From: Zhongshania aliphaticivorans
Lineage (GTDB): Bacteria > Pseudomonadota > Gammaproteobacteria > Pseudomonadales > Spongiibacteraceae
Assembly: GCF_001586255.1 (NCBI RefSeq)
Contig: NZ_CP014544.1
Coordinates: 2,325,501-2,389,500, forward strand
DNA length: 64,000 nucleotides
Direction of reading: 5' to 3'
Made by a program: the position numbers and the translations under genes. This document shows, one piece after another, positions 1 through 9,283 of this stretch (position 1 is its first letter; every line of letters begins with the position of its first letter). The notes under the pieces were generated by a model. That model searched no databases and was not told the DNA's origin. It was given only the letters and a program-made list of their open reading frames with translations.

Positions 1-1448
1 TATTGGTGGTCACCGGGCCAACGGTCATTATGCCCCTACTAAAACACGCCAAGCTCAACCGCCGCACGGCATCCTATTTGAAGTGGGAGGGCATTATCAA
101 TGACCCCATTGGTGTGCTATTGGCGGTACTGGTTTACCAATACCTACTTTACTCAGGCGAAGGCCCTGCCCTGCAATCGATTCTCGCCAGCCTCGGCTTA
201 GCCCTCGGAGTCTCAATCGTGCTCGGCGGTGGCGTTGCCTATAGCTTGGGCTACGCATTTCGCCAGGGCTGGATCCCTGAATACCTGAAAGCACCCTCGA
301 TCATCGCTGCAGTGCTCGCGGTTTACGCCCTATCTGACCTCGCCCAACACGAATCAGGCTTACTGGCGACGACCTTAATGGGCGTGGTGATGGGCAATAT
401 GCGCCTGCGCAGCTTAGATGAAATGCGCCGTTTTAAAGAATACATCACCATTATTTTGGTCTCATTTTTGTTCGTGGTGCTCACCGCCTCTCTCACCATG
501 GACTCAATACGCGCCATTCACTGGCAACTCATTGCCATGGTGCTAGGCTTTGTTTTTGTGGTTCGCCCCCTCGCCGTATTTCTTGCCACCATCCGCACCG
601 ACTGTAGCTGGCAGGATCGCGTGCTAATGGGGTGGATCGCCCCGCGCGGGGTTGTCGCCGCAGCGTCCGCTGGTGCTTTTGCCCCAGCACTCATTGATGC
701 CGGATTCAGCGACGCCGAGTATCTGGTACCGGCGGTGTTTATGCTTATTTTCACCACTATCATCGCCCACGGCTTTTCCCTTGGCCCCCTCACCAAATTA
801 TTAAAACTGGGATCGGCTGGCAAAGGCCGAATTCTCATCGTTGGCGCCTCACCGTGGACCGTTGAACTGGCTAGCGCCCTGAAAAAAATAAACCAAGATG
901 TGGTTATTGCCGATACAGAATGGGGGCGACTGCAATCTGCCCGCCAACAGGGAATAGACACGTGGTTTGGCGAGGTGCTGTCTGACTTGGCCGAGGAAGC
1001 CATGGCCCTAGACAATATTTACACCGTGCTGGCCGCAACAGGCAACAACCATTACAACTCAATGGTATGTAACCACTTTGCGCCCCACCTTGGCCGCCAC
1101 CGCGTGTTTCAGCCCTACGACAGCGGCTATGAACGCCACAATCGCGTGGTGTCAGAAACTCGACGCGGCATTACCGCTTTCTCTGCCAATATTTCCTTTG
1201 CCGAGCTGTGGACCCGAATGATTCGTGGCTGGGGTATCCGCAAAACGATTATTACCGAGACTTACACCGAAAAAGACTTTTTGGCCAAGCTACCTGAAGA
1301 TGCCGTGCGGCTTGCCATTATCCCCGAAAGCGGCAAACTGGAATGGCTAAGCCAAAAACCCCGTAAACTACAGCCCGGTGATACGGTCATCAGTTTTGTA
1401 CCACCGGAGTCAAACGCCGAGGCCGTCGAGCCCGCCGTTTCGACCTAA
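1..1448 (+). CDS. Cation/proton antiporter with C-terminal TrkA-N-like domain (5' partial)
   Basis: This is the 3' part of a CPA1/NhaP-type monovalent cation:proton antiporter of the inner membrane. The reading frame is open to the window edge, so the start lies upstream; the TTG at position 3 is internal. About 270 residues of hydrophobic helices carry the conserved APRGVVAAA segment of the transporter core. A Rossmann-like cytoplasmic domain follows (RILIVGASPW, then a VIADTE strand end), which resembles a TrkA-N/RCK nucleotide-binding module that gates transport. The family exchanges Na+ or K+ for protons in pH and salt balance; the ion cannot be read from sequence. The gene is separated by about 110 bp from the defence operon downstream and is probably unrelated to it. 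Confidence 0.85.
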   Translation, partial: LVVTGPTVIMPLLKHAKLNRRTASYLKWEGIINDPIGVLLAVLVYQYLLYSGEGPALQSILASLGLALGVSIVLGGGVAYSLGYAFRQGWIPEYLKAPSIIAAVLAVYALSDLAQHESGLLATTLMGVVMGNMRLRSLDEMRRFKEYITIILVSFLFVVLTASLTMDSIRAIHWQLIAMVLGFVFVVRPLAVFLATIRTDCSWQDRVLMGWIAPRGVVAAASAGAFAPALIDAGFSDAEYLVPAVFMLIFTTIIAHGFSLGPLTKLLKLGSAGKGRILIVGASPWTVELASALKKINQDVVIADTEWGRLQSARQQGIDTWFGEVLSDLAEEAMALDNIYTVLAATGNNHYNSMVCNHFAPHLGRHRVFQPYDSGYERHNRVVSETRRGITAFSANISFAELWTRMIRGWGIRKTIITETYTEKDFLAKLPEDAVRLAIIPESGKLEWLSQKPRKLQPGDTVISFVPPESNAEAVEPAVST

Positions 1449-1560
1449 GCTAATGACCTCAACCAGCTCCGTAACCTGGCTATTCAAGCGTTAAGTTCGC
1501 AGCGCACGCGCTGTGAGCTTGCCGCGACCAAAGACAGCTAGTATTTAGAAAGGAAGCCCT

Positions 1561-2967
1561 GTGTTTCTCGACCGGATTTCAAATAATCTTTTTAAACCCT
1601 TGGCATCAAAGAACGCTCGGCTCTACGGTATCGGGCTTCACGCCCTCTACAAACGACTAATTGAAAGCCAGGAAAGCGGAGACGAATGCACCCCCAAGGA
1701 AGCAAAAGACTTCATTCGGCGCGAACTATTTAATCAGTCGCAAACCATAGAATGGCAAGACGAAGATGAACTTATTGCCGATACCGACACAGATCTGGCC
1801 GGCCGAATTTACAATCGACTCAGAGATACCGACTGGCTAATAGAAATGGACGAAATCGGCTATCGCCGAATTACTTCCTTTCCGCCCGACGCTGCCCAAT
1901 TGCTCAATGCGCTGTCCAGCCTCGGCGAACAAGGCGAACTCGATCTCGGCAGCATCTGCTTAGGGGTTTATTCCAGCTTAAAGAATGTGCTGGAATCACC
2001 CCGCGAAAATGCGCATCTAATTAGTTTTGCCGCAAAAAGTGCAAAGACTTTTTACGCAGAAGCTTCCGCATTATCGTTTACCACCCGCGAACTGGCCTAC
2101 CGCATGCTTAATCAAAGCAAGAGTTCGGAGCAACTCGACACTTTCTTTAACATCTTCATCAACCAAGTTTTTACTCGCGACTACAAAACCCTGCACAGCA
2201 AGGACAACCCCTACCGCTTTCGCGGCCGAATACTGAGCCAGTCTGCCGAAATCGCCTTTGACAGCAGTGTATTAAGCGAAGTCGTAAACGGTATTCTCAG
2301 CACCAGAAACGAAGCCAGCGCCGAATCAATACAAGATGAAGTGCGTGCTGAGCTGCAGGCCATCACCAAAGTATTCACCAATATCCCCACACTGATGGAA
2401 GGCATGGAGCGCTACCGCCGGTCTATGACTCGCCGCACCAGAGAGGCCATTCGCTACTCATATCGGTCCACACCTGATATTGGGCGGCGCTTAGACGCCG
2501 TTATCGGTAAAATTGCTAGCTGCAGTGCAGAGCAATTTCCGGCGCCCCTTGTCGGCGACACTTTCTTAGCAGCCCACCGACTCTATGAGCGACCAGGGAA
2601 AAAGGACAAAGCTGAAGCCACAGCCCTATCTCGACCACCGCCACCACTTGAGCAAATCGCACGAGACCGGGCGTTCAAGGCTTATCTCCAGCGTCGCATG
2701 GACAACCCCGTTAGGCTCAAAAACTACTTAGAAAAAAACCTCGGTGACAACGCCAAAATAACGAGCTGCGATATGCAAATCGACAATCTTGACGATCTGT
2801 TGGCCTATCTTGAGGTCAGAAAATTAATGGCGGGCTCCCAATCGAAAGGCGGCAATTACGCCGCATTAGCACAGCAATTTAATGTTCAAATCAATCCCGG
2901 CCACATTACCGAAAACGAATATGTTATCGCCCCACAACTCGTAATCCAAAGGGTAGAAGGATGCTGA
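1561..2967 (+). CDS. jetA: Wadjet defence protein JetA (kleisin-like)
   Basis: First gene of a four-gene Wadjet (JetABCD) operon, a bacterial SMC system that recognises and cleaves small circular DNA such as plasmids. JetA is the MukF-like kleisin that bridges the SMC heads. The 468-residue protein opens with an FLDRISNNLFKPLASKNARL-type N-terminus and is mostly helical, without catalytic motifs. Identification rests on its position ahead of clear jetB, jetC and jetD genes plus overall resemblance to JetA of the DUF5716 kind rather than DUF3375; the subtype is uncertain. It starts at GTG 1561 with an AAGGAAG ribosome-binding site just upstream, and its end overlaps jetB by 7 bp, indicating translational coupling. 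Confidence 0.82.
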   Translation: MFLDRISNNLFKPLASKNARLYGIGLHALYKRLIESQESGDECTPKEAKDFIRRELFNQSQTIEWQDEDELIADTDTDLAGRIYNRLRDTDWLIEMDEIGYRRITSFPPDAAQLLNALSSLGEQGELDLGSICLGVYSSLKNVLESPRENAHLISFAAKSAKTFYAEASALSFTTRELAYRMLNQSKSSEQLDTFFNIFINQVFTRDYKTLHSKDNPYRFRGRILSQSAEIAFDSSVLSEVVNGILSTRNEASAESIQDEVRAELQAITKVFTNIPTLMEGMERYRRSMTRRTREAIRYSYRSTPDIGRRLDAVIGKIASCSAEQFPAPLVGDTFLAAHRLYERPGKKDKAEATALSRPPPPLEQIARDRAFKAYLQRRMDNPVRLKNYLEKNLGDNAKITSCDMQIDNLDDLLAYLEVRKLMAGSQSKGGNYAALAQQFNVQINPGHITENEYVIAPQLVIQRVEGC

Positions 2968-3596
2968 GAGAATTTGAAAAAATCGTCGACACCAATTCCA
3001 ACGGCATCGACGCCGCAGAGCTTAAAGCTGTTGCCGCAAGACTGCGTGAACGGCAATTTATTTTCAAAGAAAGCCGTGCACTAGGACGTACTTATGACAT
3101 TCTGGTCAGCCAGCAAGACTATTTCGAAGACCTCTTTGCCGCCTTTGGCGACGAGTTCTTTGTCGACAATCACTTTGGCTACTGCGGCATTATCCCCAAG
3201 GCCAACCGTCCCGGCCTCAATCAGCTAGAGACTATTTTTCTGCTTATTTTAGCCAAAATGCACGACATGGAATGCCGTAAAGCCCGCTCTGAAAATGGCC
3301 GCAGCCAACCTAGCGAAGCCATCTTGTTAGATGAATATTGCCTTGCTACCGGCAGAGAGAAGCCCAAGCCACGCGACACTAAATCCGCATTAGACCGCCT
3401 AAGAAAAGCCGGTGTGATCGAACTTGGCAAAGTCAATGAACTGTCTGAAATGCAAGAAATTACTATCCTGCCGTCCATCATGCGCGTGGTTAGCGCCAAT
3501 TACCTCACCACACTAAGCGCCTTTACCGACAGCCCCGCAAGTGACGACGATCAAGACGAGGATGAATCAGAGACCGAAGCCGAGGACAGCCAATGA
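2961..3596 (+). CDS. jetB: Wadjet defence protein JetB (DUF4194, KITE/MukE-like)
   Basis: Second gene of the Wadjet operon. JetB is a winged-helix KITE subunit comparable to MukE that binds the kleisin JetA and helps the SMC complex hold DNA. The 211-residue length and the pattern of a winged-helix protein with a QLETIFLLILAKMHD helix fit DUF4194. The last about 20 residues are strongly acidic (DDDQDEDESETEAED), probably a disordered tail. It overlaps jetA by 7 bp at the front and jetC by 4 bp (ATGA) at the end. No enzyme activity is expected. Confidence 0.85.
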   Translation: MLREFEKIVDTNSNGIDAAELKAVAARLRERQFIFKESRALGRTYDILVSQQDYFEDLFAAFGDEFFVDNHFGYCGIIPKANRPGLNQLETIFLLILAKMHDMECRKARSENGRSQPSEAILLDEYCLATGREKPKPRDTKSALDRLRKAGVIELGKVNELSEMQEITILPSIMRVVSANYLTTLSAFTDSPASDDDQDEDESETEAEDSQ

Positions 3597-6500
3597 AAAT
3601 AATTACCCACCGCCTCATGCGAATATCACTGGTTAACTGGTATCTTTTTGAAAGCGACGACCTCGATATCAATGGCGAGTCGATCATGCTTACCGGTAGC
3701 AATGGCGCCGGAAAATCCACCATTCTCGACGCCATTCAAACCATCCTAGCCGGCGCCGACGAAAACAAGCTGATGTACAACGCAGCGTCTTCAGATGGGC
3801 GAGGTTCAGGCCGCTCAATTCGCTCATACGCCCTTGGCGAAGTTACCGAAGATAGCGGCAGCAACGAAAAATGCGAGCCCAGGCAAGTTGCCAACACCTA
3901 TATAAGTCTGTGCTTCCAAAAGCCAAACGGCGCCTACTACAGTTTTGGCTGCGCATTCTATGCCCGACAAGATCGCAGCAGCATCGACAAATACCTATTT
4001 TTAATTGACGGCTACGCCCTCTCAGCAAGCGACTTTTTACAAGACCAATCGGTATTGCCCTTCAAAGACTTTCAGCAACGCTTAGCCAGTATGCCCGGCA
4101 AAGCCACCGTTAGCGCAACCTCAACCGAGTTTCGCGATCAGGCCTGCGTCATGATGTCGGCCATGGGCGCTCATGCGGCTATTTCGCCAGATGTGCTATT
4201 TCGCACTATCAGCCAGGGTTTGCGTTTTCAACCGCAAAAAAACGTAACCGAATTCATCCGCAATCACATTCTGCCGAGTAAAAATATCGATGTGGTTCGA
4301 ATCGAAAACGATTACCGGCAATACAAAGATATTCTGAAGGACATCCAAAACGCCAAAGACCGTCTTGTTCGATTCAACGCTATCATCAAGCACTTTGACG
4401 CCTACAAAAGTCACTCTATAAAATCAGTGGCCTGTGAATGGGCATCGCGGGAAGCGCAAGTCTGCAAGGCCGACTTACGCTTAGAGAGCCTAGAAGAACA
4501 GCGCGACACGACGGTCACCGAACAACGGCATGAAGATACGCAATGCGCTGAATTAGAAGACAAGCTCACCAAGCTTGCGTCAACGCGCGACCAAGCACTG
4601 ACAGACAAAAATGATTCCGACTTAGCGGCTAAGATCGCCCTTTATCGCGAGCGTCTTGATCGCGTCAACACCGACATCAAGCCGTTGACGACCATCTTAA
4701 ATGAATGTCGGCGCAGCTTGAGTGCGATAGAGGCAATCCCGCTAAGCAACGGCATTGACGCCGCCAATCGCACTGAACTCCAAACCGTAATTAACGACAT
4801 TCAAGCCTGCACAGCCTTCGCCAAAGAAGATGTTTTTAATACGTGGCCCCAGAGTAAGGCGACGCTCAAGCACACCTTTGCTGCCGTCGAAAAACTCGCT
4901 ACACCGTTAACCAGCCTAACCCAAAGGGTGAGTGATTTAGACCGTAAAAACAGCGAGTACCAGAGCACAATCCAATACCTAACTGACGTTCACAAAACCC
5001 TTAAAGCGGGCCAAGCGAGTCTCAAACCACAAACCCAGGCCGTCATCCAGCTCCTCAAAGCCCATGATATTCAGGCAAGTCCAGTGTGTGATATGGCAGA
5101 GATCAGTTACGGCGAATGGCAGGAGGGAGTCGAGCGCTTTTTAGGTGTTTGGAACCGCGAGGCCTTGTTGATCGTCAATCCCGACGGCGAACCCGTCGAC
5201 ACGCCTACGCTTGAACGCGCACTCGCCATTTACCGCCGGGAGAAGAACACCAACCCGCGTTTGCGCGCGGTAAAATTATTAAATCCGGGAAAAATTCGTG
5301 CACCGAAAAACACCCCAAAAAGCGGTACCGCCGCAGCCCTGATCGAGTCCGACAATGTCGTTGTGCGCAATTATCTGCAAGGGCTACTGTACGATGTTGA
5401 GCTGGTTAACACCGAGGGCGAATTGCGTCAGTGCCACCGAGGCATCACCAAAGATGGTATGACCGCCGCAAACGGCACCATCAGCGGCGGCAATACCATT
5501 GAGTTTATTTTGTTTGGCCAAGCCGCGCGCCAGTCACAAGCAGAAAAGCTCCATCAAGATCTTGTTAATACCTTGCAAGAACACACTAAGGTCAAAGACC
5601 TGTTAGGCCCGCTCAAAGACATTAGCAACGAGCTAAGCCGCCACAAAACCGAACTACTAAAACAGCAAGACCAGACAATCGCGAGCTTCAGCACCCTTCA
5701 GCAGCTAAAAAAAGACGCCCAGCATTTTCAAGACTTAATAAAAGAACTGGAAGCCGACGACAGCTTTGCCGCACTTGAACGCCGCTTTATTGCAGCAGAC
5801 AAGGCCTGCACAGAATGTCGCAGTGCCATGGCGACAGCCCAGCAGCGGCGCGGCGAATTGCGCATGCAACTGCAGGAAATTGAGCGAAGTATCCCGCCAT
5901 TAAAAGATGAAATCGGCAAGGCTGCTACCGCCCGCGCCACCATTGAGTCACAGCCATTTTTTGACCAGCAGGCCTCCTCGGCGATGTTTGAACAATTGGC
6001 AGAAAAGTATAATGAAGACTTCGACACTATTCAGAATGACGCCTTCGCCAAGGCGAGAAATCAGGAGCGCAAGGCGACCGAAGCGAAAGAAAATGCCAAC
6101 CTAGAACTCAGTGAACTTGTGCATCGTCACGACTTGGAAGACAAGACTGAGCTAGTCGCCCTACCACCGCTTGACGCACTCAGCCGCTGCAGGGAATACG
6201 CCGACGCCATTGAAAAATCTGAGATCGCCGTACACGAGCACATTGCGGCAGAAACCCGAGAGATGATGATTCAGCATTTCCGCAGCGAAATCGCCTCAAA
6301 GCTAAAAGACAATATGACCGGCTTGCAAGGCACCTTCGACACCTTAAACAGCGCACTCACCCACTTGCACTTTAACAATACCCGCTTCAAATTCACCTCT
6401 CAGCTCGTTGAGATTGACACCCTCAAAGACGTGTATGCTTACGTCACGTTACCCGACGAAAGCCATATTCCCGGCGGACTCTTTGACGACGCGCAAGATC

Positions 6501-7057
6501 ACCCAGGTTTAACGATCATTGAGGAAGTCATTACCGATGGGCGCCTGCATGAGATTGCCGACTACCGCAATTTTTTCAGCTTTGACATCCAGACAATCGA
6601 CACCGAAACCGGTGCCAAGCGCCGTTTCTCAGACCTATTGAAAACCGGATCGGGAGGCGAACAGCAATCGCCATTTTACGTGGCCTTAGGCGCGTCGTTT
6701 ATGAACGCCTACAAGCTTCGCAAGCAAGGTGACAGTGGCGTTATTGGCGGCGCCTCTTTGGCTATTTTTGATGAAGCCATGTCAAAAATGGACAGTGTGA
6801 ACACCGCCGCTGCTCTCCAGTTCTTTCAAAGTCTTGGCCTCCAGATTATTCTGGCCGCGCCACCTGAAGCCTCGGTAAAAATCGCCCCCCATATTGACCG
6901 CACCATCACGGTAATCAGAGCAAATTCTCAGGTGTTTCTGGATAATCACCGCCATACCGACGCAGCAAAACTGTTGCTGGAGAGTGACAATCCGATTATT
7001 CACCCCGAGCTGGCGAATACCTTTATGGCTGCCGTGGAGCAAGAATTTGGACGCTAA
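3593..7057 (+). CDS. jetC: Wadjet SMC-like ATPase JetC
   Basis: SMC/MukB-like motor of the Wadjet complex, expected to extrude DNA loops using ATP. The 1154-residue protein has a Walker A motif GSNGAGKST at residues 35-43, long coiled coil (roughly 260-480 and 660-880), a central hinge-like globule near 500-640, an ABC-signature-like GSGGEQQSP at 1019-1027 and Walker B LAIFDEA with D1060-E1061. All ATPase elements are intact, so the protein should be active. It starts at the ATG inside the jetB stop (ATGA) and overlaps jetD. It could be mistaken for SbcC or MukB, but the neighbours and the toprim partner identify it as JetC. Confidence 0.93.
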   Translation: MKIITHRLMRISLVNWYLFESDDLDINGESIMLTGSNGAGKSTILDAIQTILAGADENKLMYNAASSDGRGSGRSIRSYALGEVTEDSGSNEKCEPRQVANTYISLCFQKPNGAYYSFGCAFYARQDRSSIDKYLFLIDGYALSASDFLQDQSVLPFKDFQQRLASMPGKATVSATSTEFRDQACVMMSAMGAHAAISPDVLFRTISQGLRFQPQKNVTEFIRNHILPSKNIDVVRIENDYRQYKDILKDIQNAKDRLVRFNAIIKHFDAYKSHSIKSVACEWASREAQVCKADLRLESLEEQRDTTVTEQRHEDTQCAELEDKLTKLASTRDQALTDKNDSDLAAKIALYRERLDRVNTDIKPLTTILNECRRSLSAIEAIPLSNGIDAANRTELQTVINDIQACTAFAKEDVFNTWPQSKATLKHTFAAVEKLATPLTSLTQRVSDLDRKNSEYQSTIQYLTDVHKTLKAGQASLKPQTQAVIQLLKAHDIQASPVCDMAEISYGEWQEGVERFLGVWNREALLIVNPDGEPVDTPTLERALAIYRREKNTNPRLRAVKLLNPGKIRAPKNTPKSGTAAALIESDNVVVRNYLQGLLYDVELVNTEGELRQCHRGITKDGMTAANGTISGGNTIEFILFGQAARQSQAEKLHQDLVNTLQEHTKVKDLLGPLKDISNELSRHKTELLKQQDQTIASFSTLQQLKKDAQHFQDLIKELEADDSFAALERRFIAADKACTECRSAMATAQQRRGELRMQLQEIERSIPPLKDEIGKAATARATIESQPFFDQQASSAMFEQLAEKYNEDFDTIQNDAFAKARNQERKATEAKENANLELSELVHRHDLEDKTELVALPPLDALSRCREYADAIEKSEIAVHEHIAAETREMMIQHFRSEIASKLKDNMTGLQGTFDTLNSALTHLHFNNTRFKFTSQLVEIDTLKDVYAYVTLPDESHIPGGLFDDAQDHPGLTIIEEVITDGRLHEIADYRNFFSFDIQTIDTETGAKRRFSDLLKTGSGGEQQSPFYVALGASFMNAYKLRKQGDSGVIGGASLAIFDEAMSKMDSVNTAAALQFFQSLGLQIILAAPPEASVKIAPHIDRTITVIRANSQVFLDNHRHTDAAKLLLESDNPIIHPELANTFMAAVEQEFGR
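7035..7049 (+). promoter_or_regulatory. Ribosome-binding site deciding the jetD start
   Basis: GGAG at 7035-7038 lies inside the last codons of jetC, eight bases before TTG 7047. This supports a translationally coupled jetD start overlapping the jetC stop (7055-7057) by 11 bp. Confidence 0.6.
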
Positions 7058-8273
7058 CCCCCTCGCCCACAGCCTCTTGCTGCAATGTCTGAAACGGCTA
7101 AACAAAACGAGTGCGCTGGTGTGCGAAGGCAAAATCAATATTACGCCCAGAAGTCATAACGACTACCTCACGGCCTCAACCCCCGATCGGCTAGCCGCCC
7201 ACGACTATTTAAATGCGCTCGCGAGGCAAGTTCCCCAGCTTCAGATTTGTTACCACGCCGAGGGCTTTGACGAAATACCAATACTCAAGAGTATCGTCAT
7301 CGGCAATACCCGCGCCGTGCTAAAAGCCCTAAATATTGACGTCCTCGCGGAGGTCATTGAAGCTGACATACAGTTGCTGCAAACCCAGCTTCAAACGGCC
7401 CCGAGCTGGCTTCAAGACGCATTTCGCGAGCTTGCTGACACGTGGCGAAATAGCAAAAGCATTCATCGCTTTTCAAATAATCGCAAAGACGCCCTGCTTC
7501 TCGGCATTCGCTTTGCGAGCTGGCTAGCCGCGCAAGACAATTTGAATATCGATTTTCGAACCGCAAGTGTAAAGGCCTTCGGCGACTCTAAAACCTTAGA
7601 AAACAATCTCCCCGCTATCACCGACGTTTTAATATTGAGTGGCCGCCACGATCTAAGTATCGCGTACAGCCACGCTGAGATCTTGGCTGAATGGGGCGTC
7701 AGCAAATTTTCCCCGCTGTTGCGCATCCGTGGCAAGTGCCGTCTAGAGCTGCGCAATTCAGCAATTTCTACACTGGGCGCCACGCCTTATATTGCCATGC
7801 CGCTTGAGCAATTGACGGCTATATCCCTTGCCAGCCCTAGTCCTTATATTTTGTTGATTGAAAACTTAAGCAGTTTTGAACGCTATTGCCGAGAAATCGA
7901 CGACGACGGCGTAATCATTTACACCTCTGGCTTCCCGCCAAGGCAATGGATCGCACCAGTGCAGCGCCTCATTGCAGCCGTTCAGTGCCCGGTATACCAC
8001 TGGGGCGACATAGATCTTGGCGGCTACCAAATACTCGCCCACCTAGATCGCCAGCTTGACGGAAAAGTGATTCCCTTTCGTATGTTTAACGAGCCAGCAT
8101 CAAATGAAAATAGAATAGATTTAAAGGCACTCACCGATACCATAGCGGCAGCAAGCAATTCGCATATCAGCCACCTTCACAAGCTTATTAGCGAAGCGCT
8201 CAAGCAAAATAAGGTCGTCTGCAGCGTCGAGCAGGAATCTCTTGACCCCGTGTCGCCCTTACACTTTGCATGA
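7047..8273 (+). CDS. jetD: Wadjet nuclease JetD (DUF2220, Topo VI A-like toprim)
   Basis: Effector nuclease of the Wadjet system: a topoisomerase VI subunit A-like toprim enzyme that cuts DNA once the SMC complex has tested its topology. The toprim acidic residues are visible as E272 (LLIENLSSF) and D321/D323 (HWGDIDLGGY), counted from the proposed start, so the catalytic site appears intact. I choose TTG 7047 as start because GGAG at 7035-7038 sits eight bases ahead and the resulting 408-residue length fits the family. The longest open frame begins at GTG 6984, which would give a 74-bp overlap with jetC and no good ribosome-binding site. The gene ends the operon; no T-rich terminator follows. 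Confidence 0.88.
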   Translation: MDANPLAHSLLLQCLKRLNKTSALVCEGKINITPRSHNDYLTASTPDRLAAHDYLNALARQVPQLQICYHAEGFDEIPILKSIVIGNTRAVLKALNIDVLAEVIEADIQLLQTQLQTAPSWLQDAFRELADTWRNSKSIHRFSNNRKDALLLGIRFASWLAAQDNLNIDFRTASVKAFGDSKTLENNLPAITDVLILSGRHDLSIAYSHAEILAEWGVSKFSPLLRIRGKCRLELRNSAISTLGATPYIAMPLEQLTAISLASPSPYILLIENLSSFERYCREIDDDGVIIYTSGFPPRQWIAPVQRLIAAVQCPVYHWGDIDLGGYQILAHLDRQLDGKVIPFRMFNEPASNENRIDLKALTDTIAAASNSHISHLHKLISEALKQNKVVCSVEQESLDPVSPLHFA

Positions 8274-8368
8274 CAGGCCATAAACCCGCATCGACATTTT
8301 CAACAATTAACGGTAAAACAAGCTACATCTAGCCAGCCTACGCATAATATAAACACGAGGAGCTCGTT

Positions 8369-9283
8369 ATGAAATCACTTCGCACCCCCGACAATTGCTT
8401 TAGCCATTTGGCCGACTACGACTTTACGCCAAACTATATCCATGTTGACGACACCGAGGGCGGCAGTTTGCGCCTGCACTATGTTGATGAAGGCCCAAAA
8501 GATGCACCGCCGATTTTGCTGATGCACGGTGAGCCAACGTGGAGTTACCTATACCGCAAGATGATTCCAGGCTTGGCTGCAGCAGGGTTCCGAGTTATCG
8601 CCCCAGACTTAATTGGCTTTGGCCGTTCAGACAAACCAAGCGAGCGCAGTGATTACACCTACCAGCGTCACGTAGATTGGCTCCGTGCACTGTTAGATGA
8701 ACTCGACTTACAAGACATCACCCTGTTCTGCCAAGATTGGGGCGGACTGATTGGACTGCGCTTACTGGCCGAAGAAAATAACCGTTTTAGCCGCTGCGTC
8801 GCCGCAAATACCATGCTGCCCACAGGCGACCACCACCCTGGCGATGCCTTTGTGCAGTGGCAGCAGTTGTCTCAGAACATTCCTATTTTCGCTACAGGTA
8901 AGATCATTGCTGGCGCCTGTGTTAAGCCCGTAACGGCCGATACGATTGCCGCCTACGATGCGCCCTTCCCTGACGAAAGCTACAAAGCGGGCGCTCGGCA
9001 ATTTCCCATGTTAGTACCGATTTCCGCAGATGACCCAGCCGCGATTCCCAACCGGCGCGCATGGGAAATTTTAAGCAAAATGCAAAAGCCGTTTTTAACC
9101 GCATTCAGTGATAAAGACCCAATTACAAAAGGCGGTGACGCAATTTTCCAGAAAAGGATTCCCGGCTGTAGGGGCCAAGCCCACACAACGATTACAGATG
9201 GCGGGCATTTTTTACAAGAAGACCAAAGCGAACGCTTGGTTCAGGTAATTTTGGAATTTATTACGGCGACACCCCAAAACTAA
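8369..9283 (+). CDS. Haloalkane dehalogenase (alpha/beta hydrolase)
   Basis: Predicted cytoplasmic haloalkane dehalogenase that hydrolyses carbon-halogen bonds of alkyl halides to alcohol plus halide. The 304-residue protein shows the family signatures in order: HGEPTW at 53-58 (oxyanion loop), nucleophile elbow QDWGG with D123 and halide-binding W124, and catalytic H280 in DGGHFLQED; an acid is likely in SDKDP near 248-250. Positions match the DhlA/DmbA type closely (DhlA uses D124/W125). It starts at ATG 8369 behind GAGGAG. It stands alone on the plus strand before a convergent group of catabolic genes. Substrate range cannot be judged; epoxide hydrolases are related, but the W after the nucleophile favours dehalogenase. 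Confidence 0.87.
   Translation: MKSLRTPDNCFSHLADYDFTPNYIHVDDTEGGSLRLHYVDEGPKDAPPILLMHGEPTWSYLYRKMIPGLAAAGFRVIAPDLIGFGRSDKPSERSDYTYQRHVDWLRALLDELDLQDITLFCQDWGGLIGLRLLAEENNRFSRCVAANTMLPTGDHHPGDAFVQWQQLSQNIPIFATGKIIAGACVKPVTADTIAAYDAPFPDESYKAGARQFPMLVPISADDPAAIPNRRAWEILSKMQKPFLTAFSDKDPITKGGDAIFQKRIPGCRGQAHTTITDGGHFLQEDQSERLVQVILEFITATPQN

Follow-up and report, generated by a model that had tools for sequence, protein, structure and literature searches.

A probable complete type I Wadjet operon of the DUF5716-JetA branch in Zhongshania aliphaticivorans

The jet genes and their starts

The window analysed here is a stretch of 64,000 nucleotides from Zhongshania aliphaticivorans, whose genome consists of one contig of 4,204,359 bases. 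Between positions 1561 and 8273 of the window, the list of open reading frames holds four frames on the forward strand in the order jetA, jetB, jetC, jetD. The jetA gene (1561–2967) has a GTG start at 1561 with AAGGAAG upstream, and encodes a kleisin subunit of 468 residues assigned through DUF5716 and Pfam PF18982 ('JetA'). It is followed by jetB (2961–3596), which encodes a KITE subunit of 211 residues carrying DUF4194 and recognised by its reading frame together with PADLOC and Pfam profiles, and by jetC (3593–7057), which encodes an SMC ATPase of 1154 residues identified by its frame, by profiles from the same two collections and by its motifs. The last gene, jetD (7047–8273, with a probable TTG start), encodes a Toprim nuclease of 408 residues, recognised from profiles, motifs and an AF2 model searched with Foldseek. 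Adjacent genes overlap by 7 nucleotides (jetA/jetB), 4 nucleotides (jetB/jetC) and 11 nucleotides (jetC/jetD, counted from TTG 7047). The original prediction, of four overlapping genes in Wadjet order, is borne out by these coordinates.

The start of jetD deserves comment. The mechanical call of open reading frames had placed it at GTG 6984, a start which was rejected on the boundary of the JetD profile and on the Shine–Dalgarno sequence. The best JetD profile, from its position 2, begins only at residue 25 of the GTG version, equivalent to residue 4 of the TTG version, which makes the GTG unlikely; a GGAG at 7036–7039 precedes TTG 7047. From these features TTG 7047 is most likely the start of jetD. 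The residue numbers first proposed for JetD (E272, D321 and D323) agree with this start, as do those proposed for the motifs of JetC with the frame given above.

Profile identity and subtype

The Wadjet types were reportedly defined by Doron et al. in 2018. In PADLOC, type I Jet profiles rank first for all four subunits, the best matches being JetA1 'DUF5716' (240 bits, E 1e-71), JetB1 (296 bits, E 3e-89), JetC1 (554 bits, E 2e-166) and JetD1 (530 bits, E 1e-159). The highest type II or III match of any subunit is JetC2 at 56 bits; among the matches listed, type III is represented by JetC3 (30 bits) and JetD3 (14 bits), against the 554 and 530 bits obtained for type I. In Pfam, JetA matches PF18982 'Wadjet protein JetA' (196 bits, E 1e-57). 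JetB matches DUF4194 (47 bits, E 3e-12) and scores 25.7 against MksE, slightly under the cut-off of 27. JetC matches AAA_29 and SbcC_Walker_B above cut-off, the latter at E 3e-18, whilst JetD matches JetD_C (57 bits, E 2e-15) and DUF2399 (30 bits), with no match to DUF3322 at E up to 1. In NCBIfam, none of the four proteins attains the cut-off of a model, JetC scoring 20.5 bits against the type II model TIGR02680, for which the cut-off is 462.85.

JetA had been described as DUF5716-like rather than DUF3375-like, and the subtype had been left in question for that reason. PF18982 is the sole Pfam match of JetA at E up to 1, DUF3375 (PF11855) not being matched, so the description holds. The subtype is now settled as type I, since PADLOC, which places both the DUF5716 and the DUF3375 JetA under type I, files this JetA there. 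The identities proposed for the other subunits stand as well: all four proteins match type I Jet profiles in the PADLOC run, and the last protein is recognised as JetD by both profile and fold. An identity of JetA with MukF or MksF was considered and rejected, as no such model matched in Pfam or NCBIfam. Judged by these matches, which lie well outside what chance would give, all four components of type I as PADLOC defines it are present in the operon. According to the available part of its description, PADLOC's Wadjet definition requires the full gene set (PMC9252829).

Active sites and predicted folds

The three motifs of JetC that had been read as intact are all present: Walker A (GSNGAGKS) at 35–42, the signature (SGGEQ) at 1020 and Walker B at D1060–E1061. 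The Toprim acids of JetD are likewise in place and are conserved in relatives. An alignment of 43 JetD proteins, comprising the window protein, those of 41 loci found by a JetD search and the genome's second JetD, shows E272, N273, W319, G320, D321 and D323 in every one; E395, Q396 and E397 are identical in 42, the remaining protein having a gap. Conservation of the DxD is partly selected, because this stretch was among the JetD search patterns; E272 and E395/E397 belonged to no such pattern. For MksG of C. glutamicum, the accessible portion of one study reports that E236 and D279 bind metal, that alanine mutants are drastically impaired, and that E349 and E351 correspond to glutamates proposed as JetD nucleophiles (PMC10123090). 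Residues of the window JetD were matched to those of MksG by chain order and fold. At 40 of the 41 loci found by JetD, matches to JetA, JetC and JetD occur in that order; the exception, L031, lies at a contig end and starts within jetC.

The part of a review available to us reports that, in the type I system of P. aeruginosa, an N-terminal IFDR motif of JetB is a contact with JetD (PMC10586767). The pattern is not found in the window JetB and occurs in one of 54 JetB rows, whose N-termini, taken from the first possible start, are uncertain; either the pattern is therefore too coarse or not all JetB proteins have the motif. The window JetB begins MLREFEKIVD, and the FEK within it may or may not be the counterpart of IFDR.

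That the operon is a decayed or silent Wadjet remnant is scarcely credible, given four uninterrupted reading frames and the presence of the motifs. The one observation in its favour is that a scan upstream of jetA found no sigma-70-like site, though shuffled DNA yields as many such sites as the region itself (5.9 expected against six found in the scan).

The AF2 model of JetD, built from 21 sequences, has a pLDDT of 87.9 and a pTM of 0.78. Foldseek matches it to MksG (8b7f, E 2e-10) and to JetD of P. aeruginosa (7til, E 7e-8), followed by topoisomerase VI-A and Spo11. The TM-scores are low, at 0.28–0.40 (0.28–0.37 for 8b7f and 7til), with large rmsd, and the match therefore shows domain content rather than close superposition. 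In the accessible part of the review cited above, 8b7f and 7til are themselves said to differ by an inter-domain hinge (PMC10586767), and for the modelled JetD such a hinge difference may account for the low scores. As modelled, JetD carries the Toprim acids and a CAP-Toprim fold. The JetA model has a pLDDT of 79 and a pTM of 0.41, and with this pTM its fold matches amount to weak support. The best is the Wadjet-II JetABC complex 9qe0 (E 2e-7), MukBEF/MukF kleisins are also among the first, and JetABC of P. aeruginosa (8dk2) is matched only at E 0.04. The likeness to MukF counts for little, because similarity of fold is expected of any kleisin. Single-sequence phmmer searches of the PDB give 8dk1 as the best match to JetC (E 2e-6), with MukB (3euj) also found, and no relative of JetA, JetB or JetD.

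The site in other members of the genus

The operon is preceded by an antiporter-like gene (3–1448, forward strand) and followed by a haloalkane-dehalogenase-like gene (8369–9283, forward strand), both named by reading. A search for the upstream gene found it in every one of 18 genomes of the genus. In six of the 17 congeners (G017, G003, G005, G016, G009 and G006) a homologue of the downstream gene stands directly beside it, with some 50–130 bases between the two, and in 17 of 17 some gene from outside the operon stands within 1.5 kb after the upstream gene. No jet DNA was found at this site in the 17 congeners over the 1.5 kb beyond the upstream gene. Relative to the nearest congener, G002, the segment missing at the same site corresponds to 1431–8331 of the window. 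Between the same flanks, G002 and G008 carry a gene for a protein of about 200 residues which reads as a TetR-family regulator and which is missing from 1449–1560 of the window. A Wadjet remnant in these two genomes was considered and rejected, the 0.7–0.8 kb between the flanks having no blastn match to the jet genes. On this comparison of sequences, the jet genes open up a neighbourhood which the 17 congeners keep closed.

A search for jetC in these congeners gave no close match. Matches at E 2e-6 in G004 and at E 1e-8 in G010 fall in DUF3375-type systems, and a second match in G004 and the match in G011 are short and lie at the P-loop end. A foreign base composition was also rejected: the G+C fraction of the operon, 0.507, is that of its surroundings (0.512), and thus says nothing on foreign origin. 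On reading, as distinct from a dedicated search, no integrase or repeat was noticed at the operon edges.

A second Wadjet interrupted by a transposon

A second Wadjet operon, of the DUF3375-JetA type, was located by profiles on the opposite strand at 2286461–2296494 of the same contig (G000:C1; L093:3462–13495). It lies about 31 kb upstream of the window operon, edge to edge, with about 36 kb between the jetC matches of the two. Its jetA (DUF3375, 507 bits), jetB, jetC and jetD are all recognised by profile. All three ATPase motifs (Walker A, signature, Walker B) are found in the second JetC; the second JetD has E277 and the DxD, and matches DUF3322, unlike the JetD of the window.

Between jetA and jetB of this second operon is a Tn3-family transposon encoding a transposase of 1010 residues. 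Its ends are 65-base inverted repeats (91%), and the five bases TATTC flank it on both sides as a duplication. With the transposon inserted into the 3' end of jetA, the last codons of that gene are now transposon-derived, and jetBCD stand 3.2 kb further from jetA. Related transposon pieces occur elsewhere in the genome, at 1960703 (94% over 1.3 kb) and at 1979684–1982348 (about 70%). A literature search returned no report combining Wadjet, Tn3 and 'transposon insertion'. One strain with Wadjet types II and III together is described in the available portion of a published study (PMC8954581).

Next to the second Wadjet, at L093:14725–15942, is a gene for a DUF4143 AAA ATPase matching the PADLOC candidate PDC-S01. 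Beside it are a gene for a protein of 385 residues without a family and an open reading frame with a GMP synthase C-terminal domain.

DUF5716 and DUF3375 branches across the order

The window operon has much in common with type I systems of the DUF3375 branch, represented by C. glutamicum, which matches PF11855 in a profile search, and by the second system of this genome. Both branches have the same four genes, a DUF4194 JetB, a Toprim JetD and an SMC JetC with an SbcC-type Walker B. The JetD profiles of the two align over 310 columns (E 8e-19), whereas the DUF5716 JetA of the window aligns with DUF3375 JetA over only 112 N-terminal columns (E 6e-5, probability 66%), and the window JetC falls outside the DUF3375-type JetC clade. 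With Wadjet type II (L149 and L150; the solved N. vireti Wadjet-II) the general architecture is shared, and the JetD match to DUF2399 is a further likeness. By sequence the JetA profiles of the two do not match (probability 0.6%, a value based on two type II rows only), and type II JetC is longer and sits on a long separate branch of the JetC tree. The DUF5716-type JetABCD of Aestuariicella albida (L002) shares the four genes and their order with the window operon. It provides the best JetD match in the JetD search (32% identity) and a JetA that is 37% identical, and is strongly diverged. L002 and G260 are probably the same species, because their JetC proteins are identical.

PF18982 is matched in 90 of the 293 genomes of the order (in 89 above cut-off) and DUF3375 in 30. 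A JetD_C match lies 3–12 kb downstream on the same strand at 27 of 30 DUF3375 places, compared with 18 of 93 PF18982 places. The count of PF18982 places lacking such a match, 75 of 93, is an upper figure, because the JetD_C search may miss diverged JetD proteins and contig ends may hide them; in G207, jetC itself is cut by a contig end. Six JetD-less operons (G038, G045, G056, G092, G128 and G141) were read for 2.3–3.0 kb downstream, and no JetD was found. Many PF18982 places score 56–114 bits, against 196–325 for the window's kind, and these low-scoring places may, by sequence, be MksF. Both JetA families occur in nine of the 293 genomes, one of which (G238) is under the PF18982 cut-off, and both branches occur with JetD in three (the present genome, G000, together with G194 and G216). 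Co-occurrence of the two branches as a rule was rejected, as it does not exceed chance expectation (Fisher p 0.22). In G194 (C1:316830–335235) a DUF3375-type and a DUF5716-type Wadjet adjoin on the same strand, with their jetA genes about 12 kb apart.

Since most DUF5716 JetA places show no JetD, JetABC by itself could have a chromosomal role as well. The window operon might then be an MksBEF-like, chromosome-organising condensin with a jetD gene alongside, plasmid loss being a side effect. MksBEF-like JetABC operons have DUF5716 JetA, JetB and JetC in common with the window and, unlike it, no JetD, the subunit which separates the window operon from such a condensin. Apart from the 18 of 93 places given above, the condensin reading can draw on families f26 and f37, in which high-scoring JetA is listed in 12 and 10 genomes, respectively, and JetABC without D, resembling a core condensin, was read in two genomes of each; it can also draw on the best JetC match among 57 relatives, which belongs to the JetD-less operon of G038 (38% identical). 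It is very unlikely nonetheless. In the window, jetD overlaps jetC by 11 nucleotides and keeps its catalytic residues, and an operon missing at its site in 17 of 17 congeners, where no close jetC was found, is unlike a housekeeping condensin.

Trees of JetC were made from 48 and 44 rows by a quick method and contain several long branches. The DUF3375-type rows form one clade with a support of 100. The window JetC pairs with that of G038 at supports of 88 and 91, below the program's 95, and the two lie inside a set with Aestuariicella (support 99). The JetD-less rows need at least three changes on these trees, and one sits beside the window's operon. In one tree, backbone forks with a support of 83 are drawn open, the DUF5716 rows are not one clade and long branches meet. 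The trees agree with a change in JetD content inside the DUF5716 branch, in a direction that they do not give. In G038, the JetABC operon without jetD lies on C7 (L098:11543–17185), with other genes after jetC. On another contig of G038 is a DUF3375-type Wadjet, and behind it another JetD_C piece, in which one stop was read.

A type I Wadjet of the less-studied branch

A complete, intact-looking type I Wadjet operon (JetABCD) belonging to the DUF5716-JetA branch best explains the four genes and how they are ordered, their type I profile matches, the preserved motifs, the match of JetD by fold and the lack of the operon at this site in the congeners; to this reading we give a probability of about 0.9. 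The complete Wadjet first proposed for this locus is thereby supported. In the available part of the review already cited, JetABC of Wadjets is described as extruding loops until a small circle is fully reeled in, whereupon JetD is activated and cuts (PMC10586767). As the single-sequence PDB search gives no relative of JetA, JetB or JetD, the mechanism is carried over from distant members of the family. By homology with these characterised systems, the kleisin JetA, the KITE protein JetB and the SMC ATPase JetC would assemble into an SMC motor dimer, which extrudes loops of DNA with ATP. The shape of the DNA would be sensed when both motors collide on a small circle, which would switch on the JetD Toprim nuclease; the resulting double-strand cut would remove plasmids, and the chromosome and linear DNA would escape cutting.

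The window operon is an ordinary type I Wadjet of the less-studied DUF5716-JetA branch, and for its JetA, JetB and JetD no solved structure is visible to a single-sequence search. A more far-reaching reading, which we consider rather doubtful, is that the DUF5716-JetA Wadjets, at present grouped with type I, differ in function and make up a subtype of their own, with a different kleisin, a JetB without a clear IFDR contact and a JetABC core found with or without JetD (at least three changes), both branches being kept in one cell for different plasmids. If this were true, the genome of the window would be a natural test case, with one branch intact and the other hit by a transposon. The window operon and the JetD-less operon of G038 also form a pair for asking whether MksBEF-like condensins arise from Wadjets that lose the nuclease, a possibility already raised in the accessible part of the same review (PMC10586767). 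This genome carries two Wadjet branches at once, one of them interrupted. Because of that interruption, the intact Wadjet of the window may be what still keeps plasmids out.
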